52,968 nucleotides of DNA from a virus. Positions 19,062-48,100 of this stretch are shown piece after piece; position 1 is the stretch's first letter, and each line of letters starts with the position of its first letter. Below the pieces are notes generated by a model. That model was not told where the DNA came from, did no database searches, and was given only the letters and a program-made list of their open reading frames with translations. A program made the position numbers and the translations under genes. Location: positions 1 to 52,968 of IMG/VR virus record IMGVR_UViG_3300030118_000298; one strand, written 5' to 3'.

Positions 19062-21095
19062 ATGGTACTGCAAGTCGTAGGAAATGAAGAACTAGTAAAG
19101 CAAGAAGAAGCTCTTACTAAACAACAGCTAGCTGAAAGGCAGAACCAGCCTATTATATTAGGCTTGGCTGACCACCTACGAACTTGTTGGGATGCAGCAA
19201 GGCAGGCAAAGAAACCTATCGAAAACATTATGTTGAAAGCACTCCGTCAAAGAAACGGAGAGTACGAGGCAGATAAACTAGCACAGATTAACCAGCAAGG
19301 TGGGTCTGACGTTTACATGATGGTTACAGAAGTTAAATGTCGTGCAGCAGAAAGTTGGTTGCGTGATATTCTTCTTGATCAGGGTTCACCCCCGTGGGGT
19401 CTTGAGCCTACACCTATACCAGACTTGTCACCACAACAGACAGTAGAGATAGAGAATTCGTTTGCTGAGCAAGTTGTAAAACTTGTCGAGCTAAACGGGC
19501 AAGCACCAACACAAGAAGAAATGATAGAATTGAAAGAAATGGTAACACAAGATTATCGTTTCAAACTATTGCAAGGTGCAGATAACCGTGCAAAGAAAAT
19601 GGATATTAAGATTCGTGATCAGTTTACACAAGGTGGTTGGGGCGAATCATTTAATGAATTTATCACCGATTTGGTTACATACCCATGTGCTTTTATCAAA
19701 GGCCCTGTGGTTCGTAGGCAAAGAAAACTTGGCTGGAAATATGAAAATGGTAGAACTACTGTAGAAGCAGATGAGATTATTGCTCCAGAGTTTGAACGTG
19801 TTGATCCATTTAGAATATATCCTGAGCCGGGTATAACTAATCTTAATGATGGTTATTTGTTTCAGCATCATCCGCTAAGTCGTTCAGAACTTGCAGACCT
19901 TATAGGTGTGCCGGGTTATGATGAGGATGCCATCAGGGAAGTTCTTGATATTGGTAATGGTACATCTTGGTTTAGTGAAGATGTAGAGCTTACTAAAGAG
20001 AACGAAGAAAGAAAGTTTCATACGTTTAACAAACCAACTACGACTTATGATGCCTTAGAGTTTTGGGGTAAAGTAAGTGGTAAGATGTTGAAAGAGTGGG
20101 GACTTACTGAAGAAGAGATACCTGATGAAGCAAAAGAGTATGATGCTAACGTTTGGGCCGTAGGTAACTACATCATTAAAGCAGTATTAAACTACGACCC
20201 GTTAGGAGAAAAACCATATGCTAAGACATCGTTTATTAAATGCCCCGGTGCGTTTTGGGGTAAAGGTATACCAGAAATTATTGAAGATTTGCAGAACATT
20301 TGTAATGCAGCTGCAAGGGCTTTGGTCAACAATATGGGGATATCTTCCGGCCCGCAAGTCGAAGTTAACCTCGAAAGAATCCCGCCCAACGAAGACATCA
20401 CGCAGCTCCACCCGTGGAAAATCTGGCAAGTCACGAACGACCCGTTAGGTTCTAGTGCACCTGCTGTTAGATTTACACAACCGGATGACAACGCAAACAC
20501 GTTGTTAGGTGTTTATGATAAATTTTCTAAACTAGCTGATGACCAATCAGGCATACCATCTTATGTTTACGGTGACCTAAATGTACAGGGAGCTGGTAGA
20601 ACATCTTCTGGTTTGTCTATGTTGATGGGCGCAGCTGGTAAAGGTATTCGTCAAGTTGTTATGCACATAGATAACGAAATCATCAAACCTATTGTCCACA
20701 GACAGTTTGTGTACAACATGCGTTATGATGAAGATGAATCAATTAAAGGCGATGTTAACATTGTACCAAAAGGTGCAGTTAACCTTGCAGTCAAAGAGAC
20801 TGTAAATGTTCGCCGTATCGAGTTTCTTAATGCAACCGCCAACGAGGTTGATATGCAAATTGTTGGTAAGGAAGGCCGTGCAGCGATTCTTCGCGAAGTG
20901 GCTAAAGGGTTGCAAATGCCTGTGGATGACATTGTTCCGTCTAGGGAAAAAGAACGATTCCAAGATAAGGTTAAGGCGCAGATGCAAGCTCAACAGCAAG
21001 CTCAGCAACCTACACCGACTCAGCCGGATGGTTCTCCCAAAGGAGGAATGGATGGCAACACAGTGAGTAACCGTGACACTGGAGGTGCTGGATGA
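19062..21095 (+). CDS. Portal protein
   Basis: 677 residues. It is the large gene between the terminase and scaffold/capsid genes, the usual portal position. Recognisable segments are GSDVYMMVTEVKCRAAESWL near residue 90, a conserved VDPFRIYPEPG clip-region segment (about 247), and the long helical C-terminal region with IPSYVYGDLNVQGAGRTSSG and a Gln-rich tail (QMQAQQQAQQPTPTQPDG). Twelve copies form the DNA-entry ring at a head vertex. The size and form suit podovirus portals. It overlaps the next gene by 4 bases. Confidence 0.85.
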   Translation: MVLQVVGNEELVKQEEALTKQQLAERQNQPIILGLADHLRTCWDAARQAKKPIENIMLKALRQRNGEYEADKLAQINQQGGSDVYMMVTEVKCRAAESWLRDILLDQGSPPWGLEPTPIPDLSPQQTVEIENSFAEQVVKLVELNGQAPTQEEMIELKEMVTQDYRFKLLQGADNRAKKMDIKIRDQFTQGGWGESFNEFITDLVTYPCAFIKGPVVRRQRKLGWKYENGRTTVEADEIIAPEFERVDPFRIYPEPGITNLNDGYLFQHHPLSRSELADLIGVPGYDEDAIREVLDIGNGTSWFSEDVELTKENEERKFHTFNKPTTTYDALEFWGKVSGKMLKEWGLTEEEIPDEAKEYDANVWAVGNYIIKAVLNYDPLGEKPYAKTSFIKCPGAFWGKGIPEIIEDLQNICNAAARALVNNMGISSGPQVEVNLERIPPNEDITQLHPWKIWQVTNDPLGSSAPAVRFTQPDDNANTLLGVYDKFSKLADDQSGIPSYVYGDLNVQGAGRTSSGLSMLMGAAGKGIRQVVMHIDNEIIKPIVHRQFVYNMRYDEDESIKGDVNIVPKGAVNLAVKETVNVRRIEFLNATANEVDMQIVGKEGRAAILREVAKGLQMPVDDIVPSREKERFQDKVKAQMQAQQQAQQPTPTQPDGSPKGGMDGNTVSNRDTGGAG

Positions 21096-21313
21096 TAAAT
21101 CCAAAACCAGAGGTTATTCAATCTTTAGCAACCGTGTGTCGTCAATATCCTGAAGTGCTTAATTGGCTAAAGGAATGGCGTGATCACGAGCTACAGAAGC
21201 TACCGAGTGTCTTGCAAAACACGGCGCTTGCACAGGGGCGGTGTCAAGTTTTGTCAGAAGTTACTAAACTAATAGAACAGTCCCCTGAAACGTTTTCAGC
21301 AAAGTCAAAATGA
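21092..21313 (+). CDS. Small protein after portal, unknown
   Basis: 73 residues, mostly helical (PEVIQSLATVCRQYPEVLNWL), one RCQV motif. No known domain. It overlaps the portal stop by 4 bases, so it is translationally coupled. Possibly a head-assembly accessory by location only. Confidence 0.5.
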   Translation: MINPKPEVIQSLATVCRQYPEVLNWLKEWRDHELQKLPSVLQNTALAQGRCQVLSEVTKLIEQSPETFSAKSK

Positions 21314-42185: not shown

Positions 42186-45100
42186 ATGGCCCCGAAAAAG
42201 GCAGGATTAAAAGCATTTGAGAGTTCTTACTATGATGCTACTACTGCGCCCGGAGCTGGAAACCCATTCGTAGCGCAAACAGGTTCATCAGGATTAGGAC
42301 AGTTAAATGCACAACTAACTGATCAGTTAGTTCAAGAACAAGCAGAGTTTGAAAACTTAGAAACAGTCCTTGGTGGAGGATTTAATAAACCACCGGAGAC
42401 TGGGCCTCGTGTATTGTTTAGTCCTTCAACTAATCAGATGTTTGTTAATGGTGCATTGTATGATGCTGATGACAAACAATCAGCATTAGATGCAGAGTCT
42501 CGTGGATTTTTAGACAGACCAAGAGCAGCACAGCCTGAAGGCGCAGACTGGCAAACTGTATCACCTGAATCTTATAAAACATTTATGAATAACATAGAAG
42601 ACCCCGGCTTGGGGACTCTTATGGCTAGAAACTTTGAGATTGGTGGTAGTAATCTAAAACTACTTGCTGGTCGAGGTATGCAATTTCTTGGTGCTGAAGA
42701 AACAGGACAAAGTATAGTTGATAATGCAGTACGAGAACTCTATTACAACCAACCATTTCAAAGAGAATTTACTGAGATAGAAGTAGGTAGTAGCTCAAAC
42801 GGAGCTATTGATTGGTTTGTAGCTAACTTAGCACAGCAAGGGCCAAACTTAATAGAATCTATTGCTGTTGCTTTGCTTGGTGCAGGAGCAGGTGCAGTTG
42901 CAGGTGGTGGTGCTAACCCATTTACTGCAGCAGGTGGTGCTATATATGCGTTACTAGGTAAAGAAGCAGTAAAAAAATCTGTACTAAAAGCTGCTACAAA
43001 ATATACAAAAGGTCAGGCTCTTACCAAAGGTGAGAAAAAACTACTTCGTGAGTTTTCAGGTCTAACAGCTGCAGCAAAACTTAAAAACCCTAATGCTTTT
43101 TTTGTAACTTCTAGCGGCACAACTATGACTGGATCACAACTTCTCAAGAAAGAAGCTAAGAAAGGATTGTTTCAACCTGATGATACTTATTTGGCAGGCG
43201 CACTAAAAGCAAACAGATTAGGTAGAAACCAAGCTATTGCAGGTGGTGCTGCAGGTGCATCTGTAATTGGTTCTTATGGTATGGGTGTTGCCGATATCTA
43301 TGGTGAAGTAAGAGATACAGGCGTAGGTGATAGAGGTACAGCAGCTTTAGGTGCTATACCATATGCAGCACTAGAAACACTTCCAGAATTTTTCTTAGCA
43401 GGTCGTATCTTTGGTCTTGGCCCTGATATTATTAAATCAGGTGGTGTAGCCAAACGTGCAGGTAAAGGATTGTTTGTAGGTGGTACGTTAGAAGGTCTAA
43501 CTGAACTTGGACAAGAAGCTATTATACTTACAGGTACAGATCAACTTGGTGATGCCGAAACAACTAAACGATTAATTAATTCTTTTGCAGCTGGTTTTGC
43601 TATTGGTGGCCCACTTGGTGGTGGTGCTAACTTACTTAAACGAGGTGAACCTACTGATTTAATAAATGAAGAAAATCCACAGGCTGATCAAAAGTTATTG
43701 CCCGCCCCTCCTGAAGGGACTCCTCCTCCTCAAGGTCAAGGGCAGTTACCCCCACCTGCAGGGCCTGCTGCTTTACTTACTGGGCCTCCTAGTCAAGACC
43801 CTGCTTTCCCCGGGCCGCAGTTCGTTGCAGGTGAACAAGGGGTACAACAAGTAACACAGCAAGGTGAGTTATTCCCACAACAAGATTTAGGGCAGCAAAG
43901 CGTTCAAGCGCAAGATACTGTGCCACAAGAAGTACCAGACGTTACAACTGAGAGAACTCCTCAAGTTATTGCTGCAGAAGCTGCAGCACAACCACAGCCT
44001 ACACAAGCTGAACTAGAAGCAGCTGGTCAGTTACCTTTAGCATCTACAGACCCTACAGGTTTTGGTGTTCAAGCTGCTGTTACCCCGGAAACAGAACAGA
44101 CAGCCATAGGACAACAACTTCTACAAGCTGCTAATAACAGAATACGAGAACAACAAAACCAAATCGCTGAAGAACAAAGGATTAGACAAGAAGCTGAAGA
44201 AAGAGCGCAAAGACAAAGAGAGTTTGATTTAGCTGAACAGCAAAGATTAAATCAGCAAGTGGCTCAGTTAGAAAATGCTAGGGTAGAACAGATACTAAAA
44301 GAAAACGAAAGGCTTACTCAAGAAGTTGAGGAGCGTAAAGCTCGTGAACAAGCACAGATTGCTATACCACAAAGACAACCTCGACAGTTAAGTTTGCCGG
44401 GAATGGCAGTACCATATAGTGCAAGACGACAAGCACTACGAAGAGGTGCAGCTGCAGCACCTGTTGTTGCAGAGCCTACTGCTGCTGAGCTAGAGCAAGC
44501 AGGTCAGATGACATTACCATTTCCTGAGCCTCCTGCTTCTGAGATAGCTCCACTTGTAGAGCGTATGCTAGCTGATGGTATACCCATTCAAAACATACAA
44601 GAATATATAGATGACTTCCAAGCTGCTATAGACAACAACGACTTGGTAGAACAAGACAATATTATTGCGGAGATGGAAGGGGTTGTAGAAAGTTTTAACA
44701 GACCTCGTAGAAGAGCTACTGCTTTGTCTGCTCCTGCTCAAAATCTTGTTAATGAATTAACTAGAGGGCCGGGAGAAGTAATATCTCAAGTACAAGATAC
44801 TGTTACCACAGAAGATGGTAGGGTTTTACCTATTACTAGAACCAGTTTTCAACAACCAGCAATACCAACACAAAGGAGGACAGATGCCGTTCAGGAGCAA
44901 AGCACAGATGAAGTGGATGTACGCCAACAAACCGAACCTAGCAGCGAAGTTCGCAGAGGAGACGCCGCAAGACGCCAAACTGCCAGAGAGAATAAGCTCC
45001 AAGAGCAACTCAGAAAAGCGACAGCTCGCCAGACAGAGAACTTTACGAAAGAAGAACAACGAGCGATTCGGGAAGCTAACCAAGAAGCTCGCCGTCAACA

Positions 45101-48100
45101 AGTTCAGAAATCAACCTCTTTAGAAGCTATTCTTGAAAAGCCAATGATACCTGTACAAGGTAGAACACCCCAAGAAATGTGGGATGAATTATCTTCAGGT
45201 ATAGCTGTTGCTTATACAAGACTACCTAAAGAATTTAGGGATACATGGAATCAATATGTAGCAGGTGATACTGTTAATGGTGATCTGGCTGCTCTAATAA
45301 GTCAAAATGCTTATTTAGAATTAGATAGTAGAAATGAAAGAGAAGGTGGTCTTACCGATTTAGATAGGGTCGATGAATATATAGCAGCATTTGATGCCAC
45401 TACTGATTTTAGTAGGCATGGCACAGCTTGGTCTTATTCTAATCAACTTGTATCTCTTGCATTTTTTGATCCGGCAGGAGGTGTAAATAAAGAAGCAAGA
45501 GCAAAAGCTATTAGATATTTGAAAGATACTACCTTTAGCCCACAACAGCAGAATGCTTTAGATACAGCATTTATTAATACTATAAATACAGGTGATCCTC
45601 AGACTGGTATTGTTCAGGGTAAAAACCAACCTTGGCTTGAGTATGCTACACGAAGAAGCTTAGAAGGTGAGATAACAGTTGCTCTCAATAATATGCCAGC
45701 GTGGTTTACTTCTCCACAAGCTGCTGTAATCAGACAAACTGTAGCTGATACACAGCAACAAGGTGAAGTGCTTGGGCAAGAAACTGCAGATACCATGATT
45801 AAATTACTCCGTAGACGACAAGCTCTCGGAGAAACTATTGACTTCTCAACTCTTAGTGAAGCTTACGATGAAGCATTGGGTAAGTCCGGTAGAAAAAAAG
45901 CAAGAGAAGTACAAAAAGAATTTAATCGTGAGAATGCCCAACAACTAGAAATTATATTGGACTCTCATCTTGAGAAGGTTGAGACTAGAGATTTACGAAT
46001 GGTGTATAATCCAGTCGTAGAGATAAGGTCTGACCTTCCGGGCAAACCCGATCCTGCTACAAATAAGATGAACGTTCTTTTTGCCAATTCAAACAAAGAT
46101 TATATTATGGCAAATGGATACAGACTAAGAGATTTCTTTGATAGTGCAGGCGTACTTAAAACAAAACGTTTATATAATGGTCGTATGGTTCCTGATCCTA
46201 CTCCTCAGAACCAGCAAGAAACAAGACGATTGATTACTGATGCACAGAAACTTTTACAAAGAGGTAGACGTACTCAAGCAGAAAATACTAGGCTTGATAG
46301 ACTTGAACCATTTGCTGAACAAGCAAGACAAGCTGATTCAAAAACTGACGAGTCAGGAAACTTTCTTAGGTTTACAGATGAAAAGCCTGTAAAACCTATG
46401 GGTCGAGGTGAAATTGACCTTGTAGTAAAACAAGTTCTCAAAAAACTAAAAGTAAAACCTACTGTTACTATTGTAGAAAATGTACGAGACCTAGCTCAAA
46501 AAAATCCAGCCTTATACAAACGAGCTGCAGATGGCAGACCTCTTGGTGATTTTGATAGTGTTCAAGCAGTTGGCTATTCTGTTGGTGATCAAGTCATAAT
46601 CTTTAGTGATTATGCAAAAACCAAAGAACAGATACGACTAGTTGTAGCTCACGAAGCACTGGGTCACTTCGGTTTCCGTGCCTTTATGCCTCGTGATAGA
46701 ATGAATGCTATCTTCCGTGAGATATATAGAACAGATGGACATGTAAAAGCTGCTGCTGATATTAAAATGCGTTCTAATCCTCGTATGGATATGATGGAAG
46801 CAGTAGAAGAAGTTCTTGCTGATAAAGCTGCGGCGTTTGATAGTCACCTAATATACCGTGTTAGAAACCTAGTTCAGGCTGTGTTAGATGCTATAGGTTT
46901 AGGTGATCTTATAAACTTTGGCGATACAGATATCACGCGCTACTTCCTAAGACAATCTCGTAGGAACTTAATGACAGGTGGCAGAGGTGTTGTAGGTGTG
47001 CAACAGCTAGCTCAAAACATGAAAGACCTAGAAGCAGAAAGTGTTAATGGTAGGTTTTCTATTGAGAATATAACAAGCACTCATGCTACTAACTTTATGA
47101 ATTTGTATTCTTCCAATAAGAAAGCAGGATCGTTTGGTTCTTTTGATAAAATTCAAGAGTTACTTAAAAAGATACCGAAACAAAAAGGTAAAGCAGCATC
47201 TAGGGTCTTTGCTTCTGCAGCTGAAACTGTTCAGACTCTTGATAACAAAGCACAACGTAGTTCAGGACTACAGGAAATATTTAGAATATTCCAAAAGTCT
47301 GGTGGTAAAACTAGACGAGCCATGTCTGAATACGAAAGGCTTACATCATTTACACACACTCCAAATTGGTTTGGATTTGGTAAAGGGCCAACAGATCAAG
47401 AGTTAAAACTAGGAGGTGAGATGCTTGCCTATGGTGCTGTTTTCAAAGCAAGACAAGTGACACCAGCAGATATTAAACAAGCAGGTATGGAGCAAGGTGA
47501 TTTACTATCAGGTAAAGGTTCAGGTACTGAAAGAGTTAATAATGATGTGCGTAAGCAACTAGAAGAACAAGGTATTGTATCTAAAGAAGAGTTTAGAAAT
47601 GGTATACCTTATGTCTTAGCTGATAACACACAAGGCACAAAAGTTTTTCGAAATGATGATGGTTCTGCTTTAGATGAGCAGACGTTTGAAAATGCGTACA
47701 GAGTCTATATAGAAAACAGAAGAGCTGTAAATCAAGCTGCTATTGATAATCTTAATGCAAACATAGAAGCTGTTGCAGGACAGCGAGATCAAACACTAAA
47801 AAGATTTGCAAAGTTTAAAACAGATGAAGGATTCATTGGAGATGATGCAACCAATATAACAGCTCTTGAAAGAATCATAGAAGAATACTCTAACCTTATT
47901 ACAGAAAATGCAGATGCTGAAGGTAATATTAATCCTGCGTCTGTAGAAAAAGCACAAAGATTTATACGAGCTATCAACAGAGCTTTTTGGGAAGATAAAA
48001 AAGTAGATGATTGGCAGAATAGTAGAGAAGATACTGCTGAGTTTCAAGGTGGTGCTTATTCAGATATCATAGCTAAAATACCAGACCTACGAGCATTAGG

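Follow-up and report, generated by a model that had tools for sequence, protein, structure and literature searches.

A small PHROG_1375-family gene nested out of frame in a giant phage virion-protein gene, at a site of apparent gene exchange

The window (the whole 52,968-nucleotide stretch of viral DNA that was analysed) contains a 79-codon frame within a much longer gene. Its sequence points to a genuine, separately translated gene of the PHROG_1375 family, lying in an exchangeable slot within a fast-evolving linker of a giant virion protein, a reading to which we assign a probability of about 0.86. The sequence-based support consists of the family assignment, a conserved start and Shine–Dalgarno (SD) sequence, selection acting on the small frame, a fixed phase relative to the giant gene, and the replacement or absence of the small gene at the same site in related giants. 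The features concerned are the following.

42186..50750, + strand: host giant gene, encoding a 2,854-aa polyvalent-type virion protein
44872..44879, + strand: Shine–Dalgarno sequence AAAGGAGG of the nested gene, unchanged in 7/7 closest relatives
44884..45123, + strand: nested small gene, PHROG_1375-like (family A), 79 codons plus TAG, in the +1 frame inside the giant gene
46353..47045, + strand: putative zincin-like metallopeptidase block (HEALGH) of the giant, downstream of the nested gene; domain type according to PMC5512222

The nested frame, its product and the surrounding giant

The initial annotation had described a 79-codon frame, +1 relative to a 2,854-codon giant gene and with an SD sequence four bases before its ATG, and this description was exact. 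The frame opens at codon 900 of the giant ORF, and the order at its start is AAAGGAGG, ACAG and then ATG. The reported composition was also reproduced: the GC content of the frame is 50.2%, compared with 39.3% and 36.7% in its two 300-base flanks, and its third positions are 67.1% GC. The greater age that had been read from this third-position GC did not hold up, however. Each third position of the nested frame is also the first position of a giant codon; T makes up only 15% of these positions (against 37% at giant third positions) and is barred there before AA, AG and GA. The high third-position GC thus follows from the overprinting and the rarity of T at giant first positions, and we rejected it as a sign of age. 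The openness of the frame is by itself unremarkable and constitutes weak evidence; ∼10% of synonymous shuffles of the giant gene leave all 79 codons open.

More informative is the family match. The nested product matches the PHROG_1375 profile (E 1.2e-4, residues 3–37), in agreement with the initial annotation, which had likened it to a small phage family found as separate genes in other phages, and a search of the genome with this profile matched the nested frame and no other place (E 3.8e-7). A profile built on a 41-row alignment, in which the window's own sequence is one row, scored the nested frame at 76 bits, whereas 300 synonymous shuffles of the giant reached at most 27 bits; the PHROG_1375 hit is independent of this profile. 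From these comparisons, the 79-codon frame is almost certainly a real gene of the PHROG_1375 family.

The N-terminus is conserved among members of family A, with the pattern MPF[KR]S[KE]AQxxWMYANxPxxAxxW...TP...LP, and the tail is basic. The starting Met-Pro-Phe together with S5, A7, Q8, P17, T27, L33 and P34 is common to nested and free-standing members (41–42 aligned sequences). The PHROG_1375 profile has a length of 70, whereas the window's member is 79 aa long, has an extra long helix and lies out of frame inside another gene. An AF2 model of the 79-aa product (pLDDT 86) placed helices at residues 6–15, 17–26 and 42–75, so that the product is predicted to be a small basic helical protein with two short helices and a long one. 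Searches for a function by sequence and fold (Pfam, NCBIfam, PDB and BFVD) returned uncharacterised phage proteins only; the family matched no Pfam or NCBIfam family and no PDB relative by sequence or fold.

The family A motif was also seen outside small genes. At L034:6001 it is read in frame, close to the N-terminus of a long protein (at least 2,141 aa) that also has a ddrB-ParB domain (PF18763), and the module therefore appears to serve also as a domain of a polyvalent protein. At L027:6001, L053:6001, L059:3716 and L069:6001 it forms the N-terminus of otherwise differing proteins of 192–361 aa. As the N-terminus of such varied proteins, it is possibly a targeting or packaging module.

The C-terminal part of the surrounding giant (about residues 2317–2845) matches phrog_11358 and F116/8P-type giants, which are annotated as structural or PLxRFG. 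The HEALGH block is conserved in seven group I giants, and comparison of profiles relates the zincin block of group I to that of group II (E 2e-6, probability 89.5%), the zincin assignment being based on the motif and the literature (PMC5512222), with no family matched in Pfam. The nested gene sits between the N-terminal region of the giant and this block, in a poorly conserved linker. Polyvalent proteins are giant multidomain late phage proteins with a zincin-like HExxH domain, and members of the class are packaged in phages N4 (virion RNAP) and P1 (DdrB) (PMC5512222). The window's giant resembles them in all these respects, with HEALGH as its zincin-like block, and related giants bear the annotations structural, DarB-like or PLxRFG. 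Its sequence fits membership of the polyvalent-protein class with a zincin-like peptidase domain and, by analogy, it is probably packaged and injected into the host. In contrast, nested genes are absent from the architecture described for the class, and the word ‘overlap’ is absent from the main text of that paper (PMC5512222).

Selection in the overlap and occurrence in other genomes

All seven of the closest relatives in IMG/VR (71–97% identical) keep the small frame, AAAGGAGG and the surrounding giant ORF. Downstream of the overlap, these seven genomes have 928, 666 and 1365 substitutions at giant codon positions 1, 2 and 3, respectively; inside the overlap, the counts are 432, 275 and 202 and the order is reversed. 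The same was seen in 31 disjoint pairs of more divergent giants. Position 3 of the giant changes fastest downstream (0.264, 0.208 and 0.425 substitutions per site at positions 1, 2 and 3) and slowest inside the overlap (0.274, 0.176 and 0.151). It is the most changed position downstream in 30/31 pairs and the least changed inside the overlap in 23/31, although the pairs share deeper ancestry and the chi-square value is not a strict probability. The reversed pattern is that of the small frame's codons, which indicates selection on the nested frame and supports the view that selection in the overlap is dominated by the small frame rather than the giant frame.

A profile search of IMG/VR for family A gave at least 319 related places, of which the best 80 were read. 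By a strict count, family A lies wholly inside an ORF of at least 300 codons at 28 viral loci, always in phase +1, and is free at 40. One further locus (L029), at which the two ORFs simply share their starting point, was set apart from the strict nested count.

Giants were also sampled independently of the small gene, with the zincin block (groups I and II) as the probe. This gave a non-redundant set of 97 giants whose own 5′ end is present: 61 have a nested family A gene, four have a member of a second family (family B, see below) and 32 have neither. Since about a third of the giants carry neither, the family A gene appears to be dispensable for the giant. Every one of the 61 nested family A genes is in phase +1, and at 50 of their starts (82%) the SD match covers 5 nt or more, compared with 383 of 6538 (5.9%) other ATGs in the +1 phase. 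The fixed phase is partly mechanical because the +1 frames of these giants are generally more open (mean 20 versus 11 codons between stops), and the loci also share ancestry.

Nesting of the small gene is more general than the initial annotation supposed. At five loci (L061, L070, L076, L082 and L092), family A is nested in +1 near the start of a ∼400-aa acidic gene (group V) that lies between portal and major capsid genes, flanked by the portal (phrog_6547) and a virion structural protein (phrog_13704), the usual position of a scaffold; this host gene itself had no PHROG match. The window's giant has short giant-frame similarities to the group V genes (e.g. 59% over 32 aa). These similarities between otherwise unrelated proteins are shadows of the common nested gene. 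Family A is also nested in giants without detectable overall similarity to the window's giant (L051, L054 and GenBank MW202828), and in the bacterial genome of Paraburkholderia dinghuensis DHOA04 (NZ_RQIS01000007) it lies within a 2,393-aa ORF adjoining a transglycosylase-like gene.

The GenBank case is a spring-water phage (MW202828.1; L013:5001-5129), in which a 3,859-aa CDS encloses the member; this CDS is called ‘reticulocyte binding/rhoptry protein’, a name that is probably wrong. The record annotates the giant alone and leaves the nested gene unannotated, so small nested genes are probably missed systematically by annotation.

Family A also occurs as a free-standing gene: in L026 its neighbours are portal and capsid genes, in L022 and L023 it lies near terminase, and phage 023Pt_psg01 has it between the portal and head genes. 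This last phage was considered as an unfused relative and rejected; among the proteins compared, only the polymerase and the small protein match the window. A short-query tblastn against isolate phages, a weak test, gave mostly free-standing or partial family A matches, and no nested A or B was found in the cultured phages with related giants (8P, Y11, Y7, Mel-JY34 and F116).

Occupied, empty and split states of the site

The site of the nested gene can be compared directly in five related giants whose flanking DNA is mostly 80–98% identical. One has family A (L126), three have family B (L128, L132 and L134) and one has neither (L137). Across most 50-base blocks, L132 and the empty L137 are 94–100% identical. 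Where L132 reads AAAAAAAGGAGCACC, L137 reads AAGAAAGAAGCACC, and therefore the SD sequence is missing as well. Because closely related giants have A, B or nothing at one site, the continuity of the giant is independent of the small gene.

Family B (PHROG_2423, DUF6496-like) is small and basic like family A and fills the same nested slot, with an MPLK start, but is assigned to another PHROG family and does not look related to family A in sequence; the match to DUF6496 is below Pfam's cut-off. Its members (MPLKKGSSNKVVSANV...) are nested in +1 at L128:8601-8783, L132:8544-8729 and L134:8613-8795, and also at L142:8727-8906, L160:9252-9428 and L161:9111-9293. Wherever both families were compared, nested B is at the same site as nested A. 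Contigs with nested A are without full-length B and contigs with nested B are without A, some of the contigs being incomplete.

Of 80 family B loci read, nine are strictly nested; a count of 42/80 was rejected, 33 of these loci only overlapping an upstream stop by a few bases. When free-standing, family B frequently begins where a preceding gene of ∼790 codons stops, a portal in the case tested, overlapping the portal stop by ∼10 bases in the same relative phase as in the nested cases. In the window, a 73-aa ORF (21092-21313) overlaps the portal stop by four bases, the place that A or B occupies in other phages. By eye, it is unlike both families.

In one contig (L153:2900-14272), the giant is split exactly at the slot into an 862-aa N-terminal part and a 1,888-aa C-terminal part. 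Three unrelated genes (133, 245 and 539 aa) lie between the halves and family A is absent. The related L157 has a nested gene of its own in the corresponding gap. L153 falls inside a clade of unsplit giants, being 64% identical to L157 and 35–41% identical to the others. Given this placement, the three unrelated genes and the lack of a family A member, the split reads as secondary and derived.

Some other giants without A have further SD-led +1 ORFs, which form candidate families C and D. A third candidate nested family (PGxExxQSKxEQ...), with an SD sequence and in phase +1, was seen in giants without A and B at L212:7553, L224:8394 and L232:8535, and matched no PHROG or Pfam family. More candidate SD-led +1 ORFs of 53–117 aa occur in giants without A or B at L222:7842, L223:8493, L226:9606, L228:9666 and L243:8439.

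Origin, expression and significance

The initial annotation had proposed a fusion of two virion genes, by way of a frame in antiphase to a small gene that lay between them, with the nested gene as the survivor. Its first part, a real embedded gene, was borne out, with the small frame dominating selection; the fusion origin was not, and we regard it as unlikely. In its favour are L153, where the giant is present as two genes divided exactly at the slot, and the free family B starts, whose ∼10-base overlap with the portal stop, in the same relative phase, means that loss of a single stop could begin a fusion. However, the giant is unbroken in close relatives that have family B or nothing at the site, and L153 lies within an unsplit clade with genes other than family A between its halves. 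Relatives with separate upstream and downstream genes flanking a free small gene, which the annotation had proposed to look for, were absent among the loci examined. Fusion is therefore not favoured: one close relative has an unbroken giant but no nested gene, and the single relative with a split giant appears to be derived. Insertion and exchange within an existing linker explain the data better. The earliest nested copy may have been inserted, or may have arisen when a stop codon in front of a free small gene was lost.

Three other readings do without a separate nested-gene product. Ribosomal frameshifting from the giant into the small frame would give the giant an alternative C-terminus and no separate protein; the small frame is +1 to the giant and in several loci stays open over some codons ahead of its ATG. 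We consider this very improbable, as conservation begins at the Met common to the free-standing members, the SD sequence and start are conserved, and the open in-frame stretch ahead of the start has no constant length, ranging from 0 to 43 codons in the nested loci. Just as improbable is a decaying, untranslated remnant of an inserted gene through which the giant reads. Although the gene is replaceable, is missing from about a third of giants and may be useless, its frame is under purifying selection across the 31 pairs and its SD sequence is retained. Negligible weight is left for an open frame that is simply a by-product of giant codon usage. Such frames do stay open in about one shuffle in ten, and +1 frames are generally open in these giants, but the shuffles do not approach the family score, the start and SD sequence are shared, and the family is elsewhere free-standing or nested in an unrelated gene.

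For the separately translated gene in an exchangeable slot, expression would proceed as follows. Ribosomes would start internally at AAAGGAGG-ACAG-ATG on late mRNA and produce a 79-aa basic protein (two short helices and a long helix) timed with the virion proteins, while other ribosomes would read the giant frame, the linker of which would accept any sequence dictated by the small gene. The slot would be filled by recombination, the survivors being arrivals that leave the giant frame open. We think it reasonably probable that new genes enter the slot in this way and that only those keeping the giant frame open survive. More tentatively, the small protein might act in the head, whether in assembly, in packaging or as a protein that is internal or injected, because its free-standing relatives adjoin portal, scaffold-position and capsid genes and the replacement family B lies directly after the portal. 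On balance, we lean slightly towards the giants holding a dedicated slot, in which ready-made, unrelated small genes are swapped inside the frame, always in +1 and internally initiated, as a variable cargo or head protein travelling with the giant.

Classical nested or overprinted phage genes include phiX174 E in D and lambda Rz1 in Rz. These are likewise complete genes in another frame of a longer gene, with their own start. In contrast to the window's gene, which belongs to a widespread family and can be swapped or absent, they were born by overprinting and are tied to one locus. A literature search, partial in coverage, found no description of the nested gene or the slot.

Out-of-frame nested genes are usually viewed as born by overprinting and fixed in place. 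Here, a pre-existing family appears to have been nested repeatedly, in unrelated hosts and in one phase. The states of the slot, which may hold a different gene or none or be broken by three genes, form a natural experiment on the origin and exchange of nested genes, and the slot also informs how much the linker of a virion protein tolerates. If the giants do hold a dedicated slot, the modular exchange of phage genes would operate inside ORFs, hidden from gene callers that forbid long overlaps.
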